Below are positions 33,036 to 39,915 of a stretch of DNA of 64,000 nucleotides, piece by piece; the first letter of the stretch is position 1, and every line of letters starts with the position of its first letter. The translations under genes were made by a program, and so were the position numbers. Source of the DNA: Anaerolineaceae bacterium oral taxon 439 (GTDB lineage Bacteria; Chloroflexota; Anaerolineae; Anaerolineales; Anaerolineaceae); the NCBI GenBank assembly GCA_001717545.1, contig CP017039.1, forward strand, positions 1,922,001 to 1,986,000, written 5' to 3'. The notes beneath the pieces are model-generated. The model was not told where the DNA came from and did not search any database. It was given only the letters and a program-made list of their open reading frames with translations.

Positions 33036-33044
33036 TGATATAAT
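33036..33044 (+). promoter_or_regulatory. Extended -10 promoter of the HTH/kinase operon
   Basis: TGaTATAAT directly follows the exporter stop codon, 41 nt before ATG 33086. It shows that the HTH-GLUG-kinase genes can be transcribed separately from the exporter. Confidence 0.55.
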
Positions 33045-33085: not shown

Positions 33086-33532
33086 ATGAAAACCGACCGA
33101 AACTCTTTGCAACCTCCTGTAAATACCGAATTTCTTTATAATATGCTCCTGAAAGCGGGAGATATTTCTTCATTCGTCAAAGAGCATTCTGATTTATTTC
33201 AATCAACGGATCTATCGATTTATTTAGCCTATCTTTGCGCGAAATACGAATTGAAAAACGCTAAAGTCATTGAGGATTCCGGAATTAACGGAGACTACTT
33301 TTATCAGATTCTTTCCGGGAAACGAAAACCGTCGAGAGATAAAACGATCCGTCTCGCGTTCGGAATGAAACTTGATATAAAGGAAACGCAGAGGCTCCTG
33401 AATTGCAGCGGCGCGAGCGAGCTTTATCCTCGCAACCGGCGCGACGCAATTATTCTATTCGCTCTCGAACATCGTATTTCAATTTACGAAACGAATGATT
33501 TTCTGTATGAACTATCGGAGCCATTACTATGA
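33086..33532 (+). CDS. Helix-turn-helix (XRE-like) protein linked to Ser/Thr kinase
   Basis: The 148-residue protein has a central HTH (YLAYLCAKYELKNAKVIEDS, then GINGDYFYQILSGKRKPSRD) followed by IRLAFGMKLDIKETQRLLN and YPRNRRDAIILFALEHR. I recall very similar small HTH proteins encoded next to Ser/Thr kinase genes in Bacillota. They probably bind DNA and may be kinase targets. Its last 4 bp overlap the next gene, and the kinase gene follows that, so the three are one operon. Ser/Thr-rich segments before the HTH could be phosphorylation sites. That is inference. Confidence 0.75.
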   Translation: MKTDRNSLQPPVNTEFLYNMLLKAGDISSFVKEHSDLFQSTDLSIYLAYLCAKYELKNAKVIEDSGINGDYFYQILSGKRKPSRDKTIRLAFGMKLDIKETQRLLNCSGASELYPRNRRDAIILFALEHRISIYETNDFLYELSEPLL

Positions 33533-35124
33533 AGAAAGCCTCTTCCGCAATCCTGCTCGGCGTTCTCTGCGCATTGATCCTTCTGGGATTCGGGTCCTCC
33601 GGATTTTACTTCAGCCAAAAACTGTTTCAGATTTCCCAAAAGAGCAGGCAAACGAATTTCATAAATGCGGCAGGGGAAACCACGCAGAGCTCCGAACTCC
33701 GACAAATTGAAATCCGGCTGACTTCGTCGGGCGCCCCTGTTTCAGGATTCAGCGGTTCAGCCGACGGGACGAACTGGGTATCTGCCGATAACGAAGTGTT
33801 AACCCTTGCTTCGACGAAGTTCGACACAGTTACCGTCGTTAAAGGGAACCGTCAGGTTCAAAGAACGCTCACGCCGAAAGAGGTATCCGACGGGAACCTG
33901 ACGATCGACCTCGACGCCGCGCCGGAAGCTCCCGAAATCCTGATCGTTAACGGAACCGACCTTCGAGACAGAACTACGCTGCTTTACCCCGTCTCAAACG
34001 CGGACGAAGCCGCTTTCGAATCCGAATTCTCCGGAGCCGAGATTACCGAGGAAAACGGCGAATTCCTGATCCGTCTCCCGAAAGATCATCATCAGAAATT
34101 CTTTCATTATTTTAAGCTTCGGGCCGCCAATCCGGCGGGATCGGCTGAGACGACGATCGGTATTCTTAACCTTCCGGAGCGGGAACCCACCCCGATTTAC
34201 ACTTTTGAGGATTTCGACGGAATGCGCCGGAATCTCTCGGGATCGTATCGCCTGATGAATGATCTCGATCTGAGCTCAATTGAAAACTGGACGCCGATCG
34301 GAACGGATCAATATCCCTGGAAAGGCTTTTTTGATGGCGGCGGATTCGCGATCCGAGGCTTCGCGATAACAAAAACCGAATTGGAGAAAAACGAAAACGG
34401 GGTCTCCTTTTTCGGCGCCACGCAAAACGCAGTCATTCGCAACCTGAGGATTATCGAACCGAAAATCAGGATCCTCAACAGCGACCCGCGAAAAACGCTC
34501 GCAGCCGCGATTGTTGTCCGCGCGGCCACCGACACGCTGATCGAAAATATCGGCGTCTTCGGCGGGGAAATTACATCGGTCAACGCTGGTGCTTCAGGAA
34601 TCATCGCAGGAATGAACCGTTCCGTACTCAGCAATCTTTTTAATAGCGCAACGGTTACGACCGACTGGGATCAGCCAGTTTTATATAATACCGCCGGGAT
34701 TCTCGGGATCGGCGTCGGATATATCCGGAACTGCGCTAACGAAGGCGCTATTTACGGACGCCACCTGACCGGCGGAATTACCGCGTTGGCGAACGCGACG
34801 ATCTCGCGAACGATTAACAGCGGAAGAATTTACGGACTGCCGCTCGTCGGCGAATACCCGCCCGGCGGCATCTTCCAGACTTCCGATTCGGGCCATATCT
34901 ACGATTCGCTCTTTACGCTCGGAAGCGCGGTCCACGGCGGAGCGATCTTCAGCGGCGGGGTTATCGACAACGTCCGAGCCATCGGCAAAGCCGATTTGAC
35001 CGACCCGGCGATGCTCGCAGTTTTAGGATCTTTCAGCGGGTCCGATCCTGATTGGATCTTTAACAGCAGCCTCGCGAACGGCCCGATTCCTGCGGCAATT
35101 TTCTCCGGAAAGGAGATACGATAA
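33529..35124 (+). CDS. Membrane-anchored GLUG-repeat surface protein
   Basis: The 531-residue protein has an N-terminal membrane anchor (about 7-28) with the remainder predicted outside. A small beta domain (SGSADGTNWVSADNEVLTL, about 75-130) precedes a repeat region from about 220. It opens with FEDFDGMRRNLSGSYRLMND and WTPIGTDQYPWKGFFDGGGF. This is the typical start of GLUG-type repeats, and is followed by units such as NLFNSATV, GIGVGYIRNCANEGAIYG and NSGRIYG. The architecture matches the extracellular half of the kinase encoded next, so they may interact or sense the same ligand. No enzymatic motif is visible. Start and stop overlap its neighbours. Confidence 0.78.
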   Translation: MKKASSAILLGVLCALILLGFGSSGFYFSQKLFQISQKSRQTNFINAAGETTQSSELRQIEIRLTSSGAPVSGFSGSADGTNWVSADNEVLTLASTKFDTVTVVKGNRQVQRTLTPKEVSDGNLTIDLDAAPEAPEILIVNGTDLRDRTTLLYPVSNADEAAFESEFSGAEITEENGEFLIRLPKDHHQKFFHYFKLRAANPAGSAETTIGILNLPEREPTPIYTFEDFDGMRRNLSGSYRLMNDLDLSSIENWTPIGTDQYPWKGFFDGGGFAIRGFAITKTELEKNENGVSFFGATQNAVIRNLRIIEPKIRILNSDPRKTLAAAIVVRAATDTLIENIGVFGGEITSVNAGASGIIAGMNRSVLSNLFNSATVTTDWDQPVLYNTAGILGIGVGYIRNCANEGAIYGRHLTGGITALANATISRTINSGRIYGLPLVGEYPPGGIFQTSDSGHIYDSLFTLGSAVHGGAIFSGGVIDNVRAIGKADLTDPAMLAVLGSFSGSDPDWIFNSSLANGPIPAAIFSGKEIR

Positions 35125-37550
35125 TGAACGGACATATCCCCGAATCATTCGCACAATTCGAAGACGATTTCAAGAGAAAGATGGAGAACGTCCTTCCGGA
35201 ACCGTTCGAGAACGAATATGAATGCCTTTCGGTTTTAGCCGAAAATCCGGAGAGGAGCGTTTTCATTGTCCGCGAAAAAAACACCGGGCTGAAACGGATC
35301 TTTAAAGTAACTTCCGAGACCACCGGTAACAGCGCCAAATCCGAATATAAATTTCTCTCCCGCCTCGGCCATCCGGCCATCCCGAAAGCGATCCGCTTCG
35401 AAAAAATCGAGGACAAAGGCGTCCTGATCCGCGAATATGTCGAAGGAGAAACGCTGGCCGAAAGAGTCAGCCGCAACGGTCCGTTTTCCGTTCGGGAAAC
35501 GCTGGATTTGGCGCGGCAGGTTTGCGACGTTCTATCCTTTCTTCACCTTCAATCTCCGCCGATTATCTATAAAGATATCAAACCGCAGAATATTATTCTT
35601 TCGCCCGACGTTAAAATCCATCTGATCGATTTCGGGATCTCCCGGGAATACGATCCGACGAAAACGACCGACACGAAAATCATCGGCAGTTTCCAATATG
35701 CCTCGCCGGAGCATCTCGGATTCCGGTCAACCGATACCCGCAGCGACATTTTTTCTCTGGGCCGACTGATAAATTTTCTCGCGACCGGAGACGCTTTTAC
35801 TTTCCCGGGTGATCCCGCCCTGGTTCGGATTGCCTCCCGCTGCACCGACGTTTCGCCGGACAAACGCTTCCCATCCGCTATCGCGCTATCCAAAGAGATC
35901 ACCCGCTTGCTGAATCCGATTCCAAAAAAAGAAAAAATCCGTTTTGCGGCAGCGTTTATCGGCGCGTTCCTCCTCGGAACGCTGATCCTGCTGAAATTCA
36001 TCCTTCCGCGGCCGGACCTCCGGGAACGCGTCGACCCAGCCGCCCAAACGCTCGCGGTCGTCGAGGCAGCCGAAATTTCGATCCGCGTTCAGGCGCTCGA
36101 AAACGGAAAACCCATCCAGAATGCCGCTGTTTCAGCAGATTATCATCACTGGTATATACCGGATTCGTCCGGGAAAGCAACGTTATCTCTCCCGGCATTC
36201 CAGAAATATACGATCGTCGTCGCGAAAGGAAACCAGACCGTTCGAAAAACGGTCGGCGCCGAATCGGCGGAAGCGCGATCGTTGAATCAGATCGATTTAA
36301 ACGCGGCGCCGTACGCGCCGGAAGAAATTCGGCTTAAAGGCAATTTCGGCGAAGCCTTGAGTTTCCCACTGGAATTGACGAACGTCGACAGCGTTGCCTT
36401 GAAAGGGAATCCGATCGAAATTGAAGTCGCTCAGCCTGACGATTCCCCGAATCAGGACGGCGCGGACGAATGGATCCTGACCGTATCGGAATCGATCGCG
36501 CAGCCCGGAATCTATCCGATTTTTCTGACCGGATCGAACGAAAACGGACGCGTTCAAACGCTGGTCGAATTAAATCTGATGGTCAACAAACCCGAAACGT
36601 TCATATCGACGATCGACGACCTCAACCTGATTCGAAACAATCCCGGCGGAAAATACGTCCTCACGAAAGACCTTGACCTGAGCGACGTCGAAAGCTGGAA
36701 GCCCATCGGTTCCAAAGACGCTCCGTTCACCGGAACGTTCGACGGCAAAGGTCACCGGATCCACGGACTTTCTATTTCAAGCGGCAATACCGCCGGGATT
36801 TTCGGATATATCAGTCACGCCGCAATACGAAATATCATCCTTGTCAATCCCGAGATCCGACTGGTTGAGCCGACGACATACACCGGAGTCGGCGGCATCG
36901 TCGGAATCAACAGCCTCAGCCTGATCGAGAACTGCGCCGTTCTTGACGGAGAAATCTACGCCGACGTCGTTTTCGAAAGCGGCGCCGGCGGAATCCTCGG
37001 TGTTAACGAAGACGGAATCGTCCGGCATGTTTTCAATTCAGCCTCGATTACGATCGAAAACAACGGAAGCCGTAACGAATCAGACAGTAACTCCGGCGGG
37101 ATCGCCGGAGCGAACAGCGGCTACATCAGCGACGCAGCAAACTCAGGCCGGATCAGCGGACCGTCCCTCGTCGGCGGAATATCCGCCTTTAACAACGAGG
37201 GCATCATTACGCGAACGCTGAATTCCGGAATGATCCAGGGGATGCATTATATTCAGAACGCGGCTTATCCGCCCGGCGCGATCAGTCATCTTCTTGGCGC
37301 AGGCCGGTTGATATCAGATTCCGTCTTTTTAGAGACGACGGCAATAAAAGGAGCGACCGTCTGGAACGGAGGGACGCTCCTGAATATCGTTCCGATGAGC
37401 GACGAACGGCTGAGGTCGCTCTCTGAAGTCCGGAAAATATTCGGGGGAGCGGATGAAGGAATGAATTGGACGATGAAACCCGAAATTTCCCCATATCCGA
37501 TCCCCGCGCTGATCTTCGATTCGGACGAGCTTTCGCGAATCGAGAAATAA
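35124..37550 (+). CDS. Transmembrane Ser/Thr protein kinase with GLUG-like extracellular repeats
   Basis: The 808-residue protein has an N-terminal cytoplasmic Hanks-type kinase (about 30-265). Visible residues are Lys61 in IFKVTS, Glu74, catalytic Asp151 in YKDIKPQN (YKD in place of HRD), DFG at 169-171 and SPEH (194-197). All key residues are present, so it should be active. A single membrane helix (about 272-295) leads to an extracellular part with a beta domain and GLUG-like repeats (WKPIGSKDAPFTGTFDGKGH, AGGILGVNEDGIVRHVFNSA, NSGRISG). It is a receptor-like kinase without PASTA domains. Its start codon overlaps the preceding stop, and the extracellular half resembles the preceding protein. 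A phosphatase gene is not adjacent. Confidence 0.87.
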   Translation: MNGHIPESFAQFEDDFKRKMENVLPEPFENEYECLSVLAENPERSVFIVREKNTGLKRIFKVTSETTGNSAKSEYKFLSRLGHPAIPKAIRFEKIEDKGVLIREYVEGETLAERVSRNGPFSVRETLDLARQVCDVLSFLHLQSPPIIYKDIKPQNIILSPDVKIHLIDFGISREYDPTKTTDTKIIGSFQYASPEHLGFRSTDTRSDIFSLGRLINFLATGDAFTFPGDPALVRIASRCTDVSPDKRFPSAIALSKEITRLLNPIPKKEKIRFAAAFIGAFLLGTLILLKFILPRPDLRERVDPAAQTLAVVEAAEISIRVQALENGKPIQNAAVSADYHHWYIPDSSGKATLSLPAFQKYTIVVAKGNQTVRKTVGAESAEARSLNQIDLNAAPYAPEEIRLKGNFGEALSFPLELTNVDSVALKGNPIEIEVAQPDDSPNQDGADEWILTVSESIAQPGIYPIFLTGSNENGRVQTLVELNLMVNKPETFISTIDDLNLIRNNPGGKYVLTKDLDLSDVESWKPIGSKDAPFTGTFDGKGHRIHGLSISSGNTAGIFGYISHAAIRNIILVNPEIRLVEPTTYTGVGGIVGINSLSLIENCAVLDGEIYADVVFESGAGGILGVNEDGIVRHVFNSASITIENNGSRNESDSNSGGIAGANSGYISDAANSGRISGPSLVGGISAFNNEGIITRTLNSGMIQGMHYIQNAAYPPGAISHLLGAGRLISDSVFLETTAIKGATVWNGGTLLNIVPMSDERLRSLSEVRKIFGGADEGMNWTMKPEISPYPIPALIFDSDELSRIEK

Positions 37551-37560
37551 AAAGAAGAAT

Positions 37561-37588
37561 GCCCCGGTTTTCTCTTCTCCACCGGGGC
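37561..37588. terminator. Inverted repeat between convergent operons
   Basis: GCCCCGGT/ACCGGGGC with a 12-nt loop lies between the kinase stop and the leftward DUF805-type gene. There is no T tract on +; on the minus strand a T-rich run follows four bases later. It probably terminates one or both convergent transcripts. Confidence 0.55.
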
Positions 37589-37707: not shown

Positions 37708-39636
37708 TCAGATGATATGAATCTTGTTTTGATTCTGCGGGAATGAACGGTATATACCGTTGATATCCCGCCCGAAATCCCCTTCCGGAGTCTCGACGAC
37801 CAGATAATAAAACTGTTTGTCGACGGTTTTTGTCTTCAGAAAAGCCAACGCGTCAGGCTGACTCGCGCCCTTGTAGTATTCATAGGTATATTTCCCATCA
37901 GGGCTTTTTTGAGCAGATTCGAATCGAACCTGATTTGGGTCGCCGAAGACGACCGGCTCGGCTTTGACCGAAGCGTCTGGAGCGCTGCTGTTCTTCCGTT
38001 TTCCACCGTTCTCCTTGAAAGCAGATTCCGCCTGATTGAATTCATCGAGCGTTAAATCCGTCCCGGAAATCATCGCTTCAAATTTCCCGGTCGTCTTGTT
38101 GTCAGATTTCACCTCGTACAACCCGAACGTCATTAACCGGTCGCAGATCAGCTTCCCGCTGTCCTCCGCTTTATGAAAAAATGGCAGCGAAAGGAACGCT
38201 TTTTCACCCGCCGAGTAGGACGGCATGGTGAACAGCGTAAACTGCGGTTTCACCGCGGACTGCATCCGCTCGATCATCCAGTACGACGTCGCCTGTCCCA
38301 TGTTGTCCTGGCGAGTCCCCATATTGTCGCGTTCGTAATATTTCGAATCGGACGAGCCGTTCGTAACGGCGCTGATGTCCGCGAACATGTGAATACAGTC
38401 TTCGCAGACGGCGCTGCCCGGCGATTTATCCTGATCGCGCATGCGATCGATATCCGCGTCCGTCATCCTGTGCCCCGTGATAGCGGCGAACGGACCGGAT
38501 TTCATGTACTCCCGGTATTCCGGAGAGGCGTAGAAAACGTCGTTCGGAACGGCGTAAGCCTTTTTCCCATCCAGTCCCTTGTTGCAGACGTCGCAGACGC
38601 CGCCTTTTTTATAGCCCAGATACGATTCGTCGTAGGAGGCGAACGACGCGAGCGGCTTCTTCGTCGCGGATGCGTTTCCCGTTGCTTGTGCGTTTTCGTT
38701 TCCTGTGAGGTTCTTGAACTTTTCGGTTATGACGGCCATTTTATCGATCGCAGTTTTCAGGTTCATCGCGACCGTCAGGCATCTGTTTACCACTGCGTTT
38801 TGGTTAATGTTCCCCGCATTGAGCTGCGTTTTTTGGACGTTCTGGACGAGCGTCTGATTGACCTGATGGGCGGTGACGGCGAGCGCTGTCAGCTCGACGA
38901 GCCCGAACGCCGGGCTCAGGCTGTTCACCTGACGCTCGCAGGACGCATAAACTTCGTCAAGAGAGCGGTTCTGATTCGCTTTCACGCCAATATCGATCGC
39001 GAATTTCAGCGCGTCTTTCTCTTCGTGGGTAAAACGATGCAGCGTTACGGCGTACTGTCCGCAGATTTTGCAGCGGACGAAATCCGGGTCGTCGGTCGGC
39101 TCGTTTTTATGCGGACGGAAAGTTTCAGTTCCGCAGATTGTGCATTTATTAATGCAGCGATCCGGAACCGCCCGAAAATTGTGCTTCGGCCGAGTCGCGG
39201 CGCAGACGGAGCAGGTTTCGAGACATTTTGCCCGGTCGTATGTCCAGCGATGCCCCTCCCTCGCGCATTTTTCGACCAGCCCCACGCCGGTTTCCTTGCA
39301 GAGGAAGATCAGCACGGCGATTTGGCCGAAGAACGGGAAGAGGTTCCAAAGCAGGATTTTCCAATCGTAGCCGGCGTCGTTCAGCCGCCGAACCGCCATC
39401 GAGAGCATCGGGATCACGTTGATGACGCCGTATATGGCCTCTAAATAGCCGATATAGGTCGGTACCTCTGACATCTGTGGGATATCTATAAATCCGCCGA
39501 TCACCAGGCTGCCCGCAAACATCCATATAATATAGATCAGGAACCAGGCTAATACCGCGAGCCAGTAATCACGGCGGTTTGTCTTTCCACCGAAATCGAA
39601 ATAACCTTTCCAATATTGACCGTAAGCTTTAATCAT
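37708..39636 (-). CDS. DUF805-type membrane protein fused to Cys-rich and unknown domains
   Basis: The 642-residue protein starts MIKAYGQYWKGYFDFGGKTN after GGAGG. Residues 1 to about 120 form a DUF805-like domain with four membrane helices. Then come CxxC pairs (CLETCSVC, CINKCTICG, CKICG), suggesting zinc ribbons, and a helical middle. A second Cys block follows (CDVCNKGLDGKKAYAV and CEDC, about 355-425), with a C-terminal soluble part of unknown fold. DUF805 proteins are of unknown function. The upstream reading frame is open to 39738 and is in frame with the broken small gene, so a read-through fusion is possible. It is the last gene of the leftward accessory cluster. Confidence 0.78.
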   Translation of the reverse strand: MIKAYGQYWKGYFDFGGKTNRRDYWLAVLAWFLIYIIWMFAGSLVIGGFIDIPQMSEVPTYIGYLEAIYGVINVIPMLSMAVRRLNDAGYDWKILLWNLFPFFGQIAVLIFLCKETGVGLVEKCAREGHRWTYDRAKCLETCSVCAATRPKHNFRAVPDRCINKCTICGTETFRPHKNEPTDDPDFVRCKICGQYAVTLHRFTHEEKDALKFAIDIGVKANQNRSLDEVYASCERQVNSLSPAFGLVELTALAVTAHQVNQTLVQNVQKTQLNAGNINQNAVVNRCLTVAMNLKTAIDKMAVITEKFKNLTGNENAQATGNASATKKPLASFASYDESYLGYKKGGVCDVCNKGLDGKKAYAVPNDVFYASPEYREYMKSGPFAAITGHRMTDADIDRMRDQDKSPGSAVCEDCIHMFADISAVTNGSSDSKYYERDNMGTRQDNMGQATSYWMIERMQSAVKPQFTLFTMPSYSAGEKAFLSLPFFHKAEDSGKLICDRLMTFGLYEVKSDNKTTGKFEAMISGTDLTLDEFNQAESAFKENGGKRKNSSAPDASVKAEPVVFGDPNQVRFESAQKSPDGKYTYEYYKGASQPDALAFLKTKTVDKQFYYLVVETPEGDFGRDINGIYRSFPQNQNKIHII

Positions 39637-39915
39637 GTTTTCCTCCTTGCATTTCCCATCTAAGGCAGGTTTAACGTCGCCCGACTTCGCGATCAGATAC
39701 GAAATCCCCCCGCCGATCAGCGCGAAAAACAGCGCCAACGCATTAAGAAGCTCCTATTCCCAAATCGGCTGCGTTTCCGAGGCGTACGCCGATAAATTCA
39801 AATCCGACCCACGGAATAATCGTCAGGACGACGTAAACGGCCGGTTTTTACCCCGTTCCGCGGCGTTTTTACTGTTCTTTTGGCAGAGCAGAATAATTCC
39901 GATAATCTCTAACAT
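39637..39915 (-). pseudogene. Small membrane protein gene broken by two frameshifts
   Basis: From ATG 39915 (GGAGGAAAAATC upstream) the frame reads MLEIIGIILLCQKNSKNAAE and then meets TGA at 39820-39822. A neighbouring frame continues with VYVVLTIIPWVGFEFIGVRL, and the original frame resumes with ALALFFALIGGGISYLIAKS. The three pieces make one sensible small protein with two or three membrane segments. A run of A on the minus strand (39846-39850) is a likely slip point. Either the gene is decaying or the assembly has indel errors. The final piece is open through to the DUF805 start codon. Confidence 0.65.

Follow-up and report, generated by a model that had tools for sequence, protein, structure and literature searches.

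Within a 64,000-nucleotide stretch of the genome of Anaerolineaceae bacterium oral taxon 439 (contig CP017039.1, positions 1,922,001 to 1,986,000; the whole stretch is referred to here as the window), an operon at positions 33086-37550 of the plus strand holds three open reading frames (ORFs), which encode in order a helix-turn-helix (HTH) protein, a membrane-anchored 'GLUG' protein and a receptor Ser/Thr kinase, with consecutive genes overlapping. We propose that this locus is probably a signalling circuit from a receptor kinase to its own dedicated activator, a counterpart of two-component systems built on Ser/Thr phosphorylation, in which an outside ligand would lead the kinase to phosphorylate the HTH protein and the GLUG protein would take some part at the cell surface; the mechanism is put forward for the window because its relatives make it the likeliest. 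An earlier note, made from the sequence alone, had already pictured a transmembrane signalling device encoded in one locus, the HTH protein being the cytoplasmic partner of the kinase, and that picture is supported by the presence of the HTH/kinase pair in three phyla, by the correlated divergence of the two proteins, by a conserved threonine in the HTH protein and by operators in relatives. The features of the operon, all on the plus strand, are as follows.

33039-33044, plus strand: candidate operon promoter, TATAAT preceded by TGA (extended -10), from sequence
33086-33532, plus strand: XRE-like HTH protein of 148 amino acids, predicted DNA-binding partner and predicted kinase target (ORF call, weak profile and fold matches, structure model)
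33125-33127, plus strand: codon of Thr14, the candidate phosphoacceptor (alignment)
33284-33310, plus strand: putative recognition-helix region, residues 67-75 (INGDYFYQI), within which positions 68 and 73 vary together with operator bases among relatives (model, covariation)
33529-35124, plus strand: membrane-anchored GLUG protein of 531 amino acids, with an N-terminal transmembrane (TM) helix (4-22), beta domains and a GLUG beta-repeat (homology, model, hydropathy window)
35124-37550, plus strand: receptor Ser/Thr kinase of 808 amino acids (ORF, Pfam)
35283-35921, plus strand: Pkinase domain, residues 54-266, with YKD (149-151) in place of HRD and the DFG aspartate at 169 (Pfam, alignment)
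35949-36005, plus strand: TM helix of the kinase, residues 276-294 (hydropathy window)
36006-37547, plus strand: kinase ectodomain, with a CarboxypepD_reg-like stretch (318-387, below cut-off), more beta domains and a GLUG region (Pfam, homology)

The overlaps of 1 to 4 bp reported earlier are borne out by the ORF coordinates, with 4 bp shared at the HTH/GLUG junction (ATGA) and 1 bp at the GLUG/kinase junction (TAATG). It is the pairing of HTH and kinase genes, however they are arranged, that recurs in relatives. Across the 147 genomes of the window's family, 41 gave an HTH match at E 0.01, and in 16 of them, the window's own included, the HTH stood alone (counted by frame length and match extent); every one of the other 15 also had the kinase, directly downstream in 14 and behind a GLUG gene in G039. 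A species-genome scan yielded 440 relatives, of which 80 were retained, and the main locus set comprised 131 stretches after removal of five duplicates, or 115 distinct HTH loci once four repeated HTHs and 12 stretches without a called HTH ORF had been set aside; 40 regions were fetched of 56 places, and a held-out set of 60 regions, taken nearly in rank order, came down to 54 loci after three and a further three were dropped, with predictions written before testing. Among the 115 loci, the kinase lay within 400 bp of the HTH in 96 (55 reading from HTH to kinase, 36 divergent, three convergent and two reading from kinase to HTH), further off in eight (including the window and L031, where the GLUG gene lies between) and nowhere on the stretch in 11; in the 54 held-out loci the corresponding counts were 44, seven and three. 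The HTH was present in 86 of 299 genomes around G538 and in 49 of 297 around G539, and the pair spans Chloroflexota (Anaerolineaceae), Bacillota (Clostridia) and Actinomycetota (Coriobacteriia). Distance matrices of the two proteins correlate with r 0.79 (0 of 2000 permutations; shared phylogeny was not removed), and elsewhere in Chloroflexota HTH matches occurred in 23 of 400 genomes at E 1e-6, mostly as partial, XRE-type hits.

The family matches that do not stand alone are longer open frames. In L017-L030 and L046-L050 we observed ORFs of roughly 280-470 amino acids that carry an HTH of this type C-terminally; L046, the one tested, has an N-terminal Macro domain, so the HTH family may have a counterpart linked to ADP-ribose.

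The commoner form of the pair, not foreseen by the earlier note, combines a leucine-rich-repeat (LRR) ectodomain with an operator ahead of a neighbouring surface-protein gene. LRR_4 was found in both of the family kinases given to Pfam (two of the 14 others, the remainder of which look alike by eye), and in eight of 11 Clostridia kinases (L111, L122, L147, L084, L112, L078, L077 and L138), with LRR_5 in L145 and neither domain in L136 and L146. The pair persists through changes of orientation and through kinases of unlike architecture. As a third architecture, the HTH-adjacent kinases of L103, L091, L126, L144 and L148 (four of the five from Coriobacteriia) are 418-471 amino acids long, lack a large ectodomain and have two TM helices close to the C-terminus; in L197 and L203 an HTH, a membrane protein and a short kinase without a TM helix stand in a row, as if the receptor had been split into two genes, and at L147:5869-6960 two different HTH genes of the family lie in tandem ahead of one LRR kinase and behind an LRR surface-protein gene.

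The window kinase has a Hanks-type fold by its match to Pkinase PF00069 (112.2 bits against a cut-off of 31.7, E 3.7e-32). The earlier statement that it has all catalytic residues stands for K61, E74, D151, K153, N156 and D169 (K61 and E74 assigned by eye; the columns of D151, N156 and D169 are occupied accordingly in 101, 100 and 101 of 101 aligned kinases), but not for the HRD motif, since the window kinase and its sister L031, alone among the 101, read YKD where His is found in 99 and Arg in 98; no GxGxxG loop was visible by eye in the window kinase. Its single membrane helix, also part of the earlier description, was recovered in the hydropathy window, and its Pfam Glug match lies just over threshold (21.0 bits against 20.5). 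Identity with the PASTA kinases Stk1/PknB was rejected, as Pfam found no PASTA repeats and NCBIfam NF033483 scored 108.9 bits against a cut-off of 450. In the kinase tree the window and L031 form a deep pair beside the receptor-kinase clade, branching next to 43 others with support of 0.965 for the clade of 45, and a recent swap from LRR to GLUG inside the LRR clade was rejected on that account. The window locus is thus a divergent subtype, with its surface protein inside the operon.

The GLUG protein is, as judged from alignment, a kinase-less paralogue of the kinase ectodomain, to which some 500 amino acids align at 30% identity (E 3e-52); the earlier view that the extracellular half of the kinase is built like the neighbouring anchored protein is in this way confirmed as paralogy. 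It has one N-terminal anchor and no Pfam Glug match of its own; its description as a GLUG-repeat surface protein derives from its likeness to the kinase ectodomain and from a predicted fold match to IgA1 protease. The model (mean predicted local distance difference test score, pLDDT, 76.5; four sequences only) shows an N-terminal helix followed mainly by strands, with IgA1 protease 7uvk as the best match in the Protein Data Bank (PDB; E 2.1e-5, TM-score 0.36 over the query) and many Ig/cadherin chains ranked lower.

We consider it somewhat unlikely that this protein plays no part in signalling, whether as an unrelated adhesin or as a half-copy of the kinase in decay. Such a reading is favoured by the rarity of the triple, which occurs in two of the 147 family genomes, that of the window (G000) and one congener (G039), in the same gene order, and by the lack of any sign of a shared ligand; full-length GLUG-protein matches are confined to these two genomes, while five other genomes gave partial matches in other proteins. 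Broad conservation of the exact triple was therefore rejected, and the co-occurrence that the earlier note had named as a check does exist, but barely. Yet the GLUG proteins of the two triples are 39% identical to each other and only about 30% identical to the kinase ectodomains, so the duplication predates the split of the two species, and both species have kept full open frames and tight overlaps.

Neighbours that share the kinase's ectodomain speak in part for a matched receptor and surface protein, as the earlier note had supposed. They were found at seven of 60 loci (six lineages by our count), against 1.3 on average under random pairing, which never gave seven in 5000 trials, but at none of the 12 held-out loci. 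Of the seven, two are the GLUG triples, four have LRRs by Pfam and one, L194, was judged fn3-like by eye; of the four LRR genomes, two contain 2 and 3 LRR frames and the others 9 and 10, so the background for such sharing is higher in the latter two. More generally, 40 codirectional pairs had 2 kb or more of sequence beyond the kinase. A protein of at least 350 amino acids with an N-terminal TM helix is encoded by the gene next behind the kinase in 18 of them, and by any of the three nearest genes in 22, compared with 10 and 20 behind 348 other genes of those loci (P 2e-13 and 5e-14). The neighbour domains examined include a PD40 propeller with a periplasmic-binding domain, BNR/Vps10, NHL, RHS, M23-fn3-LRR and SLH, and several neighbours had no Pfam match.

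No Pfam HTH model exceeded its cut-off for the window HTH protein (HTH_31, 13.0 bits against 27). Its structural model (90 sequences, mean pLDDT 90.3) is all-helical, with a five-helix core (43-107), an N-terminal arm, of which residues 1-11 fall below pLDDT 50, and two C-terminal helices; it has no strands and is thus not of the winged type. Foldseek ranked DdrO, 434 Cro and C.AhdI high, the best E-value being only 0.02, and on the weak profile and fold matches together with the model we regard the protein as probably XRE-like and predict that it binds DNA.

Thr14 sits at the start of helix 1, and its distance from Leu 17 and Leu/Ile 21 is constant. Of 104 HTHs paired with a kinase, 103 have Thr there and none has Ser, the exception being Ile in L034; the position ranks third in conservation among 140 columns, while adjoining arm columns show about 3 bits of entropy; Leu follows at +3 in 90 of the 104. 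In the held-out set it was aligned as Thr in 50 of 51 kinase-paired HTHs (the last row has an alignment gap, with Thr visible in the sequence) and in all three without a kinase, and in the longer ORFs of L017-L030 it was absent from all 14, a weak contrast, as the arm there is hardly alignable. The passages of PMC7164672 on PknA depletion report enrichment of Leu or Val at +3 after Thr among the sites lost. On the alignments, Thr14 stands out as the strongest phosphosite candidate.

In relatives, a palindrome GTRTGC-N5-GCAYAC marks the HTH/kinase loci (phylogenetic relatedness was not removed from the operator and covariation counts). At two mismatches or fewer it occurs in 30 of 104 HTH upstream regions against 3.7 expected, and with one mismatch at most there are 54 sites over 1.135 Mb, of which 30 follow the kinase, 15 precede the HTH and nine lie elsewhere. 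By position, three of these nine fall just inside a kinase end (L084), ahead of L147's LRR partner and ahead of the middle gene in L120. Among perfect 6+5+6 palindromes behind the kinase, GTGTGC was found at 22 loci, GTATGC at five and the next commonest at three, with the exact palindrome in 25 of 57 codirectional loci, ten of these from Anaerolineaceae. Its spacing is strict: a -10 hexamer (TATAAT-like, 4/6 or better) lies exactly 21 bp on from 29 of 31 kinase-end sites, against 5% at random, and 30 of the 31 have a -35 that matches at two of six positions at most. Class II activators bind centred at about -42. The kinase-end geometry, centred there with the -10 21 bp on, is consequently that of a class II activator site, and this suggests activation rather than repression. 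Sites upstream of the HTH are more loosely spaced (20-24 bp), some with a fair -35. One of the next three codirected genes encodes an N-terminal-TM protein at 26 of the 31 sites, against 221 of 535 positions after other genes (P 3e-6).

The sites also track the HTH between genomes. Seven Clostridia genomes contain 17 exact sites, 11 of them at HTH/kinase loci; a reversed control pattern gave one. In the family set of 147, exact sites (one half-site type) were present in ten of the 16 genomes with a detected standalone HTH and in seven of the 131 others (P 1.2e-7), with a -10 (5/6 or better) at 21 bp for 12 of 14 sites in the HTH-paired genomes and none of seven in the others. Three of those twelve stand before distant genes for N-terminal-TM proteins (G107 and G130 among the genomes), and Pfam gave beta-helix or PD40 matches for two of these. 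Operator bases covary, with exceptions, with the residues of the predicted recognition helix: helices with E68 and H73 go with G/C at bases 3/15 in 24 of 24 cases, and the other 14 cases divide into nine A/T (one with E68 and Y73), two G/C and three mixed; an operator was present for 34 of 50 H73 helices against four of 53 with Y73. In the held-out set it stood at the kinase end in 13 of 51 loci, all divergent, with the -10 at 21 bp in 12 of the 13; E68 went with G/C in 2/2 and D/Q68 with A/T in 10/11, and ten further sites lay away from both the kinase end and the HTH upstream region. None was classed at the Coriobacteriia-type loci L103, L126, L144 and L148; the operator is seen in Chloroflexota and Bacillota only.

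From these findings we suggest the following sequence of events. The receptor kinase, with its cytoplasmic kinase domain, one TM helix and Ig/GLUG-like beta ectodomain, would sense an outside ligand or contact with the wall; the GLUG protein, a twin of that ectodomain on its own anchor, may serve as co-receptor, decoy or clustering partner. Once activated, the kinase would phosphorylate the XRE-like HTH protein, most likely on Thr14, and so change its DNA binding. In relatives, the HTH would then act as a local activator at about -42 of the promoter of a neighbouring gene whose product is secreted or membrane-bound, and also at its own promoter; in the window, where the surface protein sits inside the operon, the operator would have been changed or lost.

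The HTH could, alternatively, be only a local autoregulator of the kinase locus that sets the levels of kinase and surface protein without being a kinase substrate. We think this distinctly unlikely, although operators ahead of the HTH gene and behind the kinase gene would work without phosphorylation and Thr14, at the start of a helix, may be kept for structure. Against this reading, the position is never Ser while its flanks are free to vary, and the pair survives rearrangement and such different kinases.

It is very improbable that the palindrome is a conserved terminator, or another RNA hairpin of the HTH-kinase transcript, rather than a protein operator. Most copies do lie within about 100 bp behind the kinase stop, and a longer perfect stem (at least four more pairs) encloses six of 31, with T-rich stretches after some of them; these six may double as terminators. 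The same sequence, however, precedes the HTH gene and is found again ahead of the distant genes in G107 and G130, where the -10 likewise follows 21 bp on, and its bases follow recognition-helix residues, and a terminator would not be expected to keep either its sequence or that spacing.

An anti-phage or conflict system is barely credible, and identity as a PD-T4-6 or MADS kinase system was rejected: the kinase does match the PADLOC profiles PD-T4-6 and Mad6, and the HTH relative at L077 weakly matches PADLOC 'Control_protein' (E 3e-4), but the kinase matches are confined to the kinase domain (residues 16-275), the window HTH and GLUG proteins have no PADLOC match, none of the seven window proteins given to Pfam drew a defence name, and several regulated neighbours in relatives are secreted proteins.

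The receptor-kinase-to-activator circuit itself has several results to contend with. The HTH tree places the window and L031 elsewhere than the kinase tree does (support 0.72-0.76) and, because the window pair is a deep branch on which the trees disagree, transfer from the LRR relatives to the window is uncertain. Thr14 is also present in ten of the 11 HTHs without a kinase on the stretch, and could be a helix N-cap retained for structural reasons. Predictions that failed in the held-out loci were the sharing of ectodomains, the presence of the operator, as worded, behind the kinase in codirectional loci (0/9), and the link of the operator to H73, since there it accompanied 13 of 45 Y73 helices and one of five H73 helices, contrary to the first set. 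In the window, whose helix has N68 and Y73, sites at two mismatches number two against 2.9 expected, and no operator was found upstream of the operon; its genome as a whole has only two one-mismatch sites against four for the reversed control. A GTRTGC operator in the window genome, with none above chance, was accordingly rejected.

The candidate promoter of the window operon has its TATAAT 41 bp ahead of the HTH start codon, right behind the stop of an ABC-transporter gene, and GTRTGC-N5-GCAYAC was not found 21 bp upstream of it. At G000:C1:323718 a one-mismatch operator-like site lies outside called ORFs with TAAAAT 21 bp downstream, and could be either chance or a remnant target; a similar site in G039 is inside a coding frame. 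Beyond the kinase gene, we saw a hairpin (window 37562-37587, CCCCGGT/ACCGGGG) whose T-rich side fits the minus strand by eye, and then a convergent gene (window 37708-39738, minus strand) for a protein of 676 amino acids that has a DUF805 membrane domain and whose long C-terminal part gave no Pfam match.

Set against known systems, the locus shares with two-component systems the logic, as generally understood, of one membrane sensor, one cognate DNA-binding regulator and a local regulon, but uses a Hanks-type Ser/Thr kinase and an XRE-like HTH, with no REC domain by Pfam and no His/Asp relay. With the PASTA kinases (PknB/PrkC/Stk1) it has in common a cytoplasmic Hanks kinase, one TM helix and a repeat ectodomain, which here is GLUG or LRR and not PASTA, and it adds an HTH protein as dedicated partner. 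The LRR receptor kinases and receptor-like proteins of plants likewise combine kinases with kinase-less proteins of the same ectodomain, and many of the bacterial relatives have LRRs; the bacterial output is, however, a DNA-binding partner, and there is no evidence for common descent of the architecture.

A kinase that phosphorylates an HTH protein on an N-terminal Thr is already known from PknL and Rv2175c of Mycobacterium tuberculosis, whose genes we take to be adjacent; in the window, too, kinase and DNA-binding protein share one locus. The sections of PMC4601284 and PMC6151718 that deal with it describe a small DNA-binding substrate phosphorylated on a single Thr (Thr9) in a flexible, disordered N-terminus, with DNA binding lost in vitro and abolished by T9D according to the text; a table in PMC4601284 gives Rv2175c DNA binding as unaffected. 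In the same sections Rv2175c is a winged HTH with an N-terminal extension described as unique to M. tuberculosis, where the window protein is XRE-like. Here, by contrast, the Thr is kept across phyla and the relatives have a private operator at a surface-protein promoter. We found no paper on the HTH/kinase pair in the literature searched (full texts mainly open ones), nor did we meet there a dedicated XRE-like partner kept across phyla with such an operator; on GLUG motifs together with kinases, the one paper that came up was, by its title, about a methanogen genome.

We therefore put forward, tentatively and as something that may or may not hold in full, an undescribed class of circuit in Chloroflexota, Bacillota and Actinomycetota, in which a Ser/Thr kinase with an exchangeable ectodomain (LRR, GLUG or fn3-like) would phosphorylate one XRE-type activator on an N-terminal Thr and so switch on the class II promoter of a neighbouring surface protein, with kinase-less twins that would correspond to the receptor-like proteins of plants. 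The usual view of bacterial Ser/Thr kinases, according to the portion of the review PMC4601284 that treats them, is that they are pleiotropic, with targets found singly; in the present case, the comparison of genomes indicates a kinase, its substrate, a candidate phosphosite, an operator and a target promoter all together. Culturable relatives such as Pelolinea submarina (L139) make the path from receptor kinase to specific promoter directly testable, and pairs of the kind seen in the relatives suggest that outside signals may be carried straight to the genes for surface proteins.

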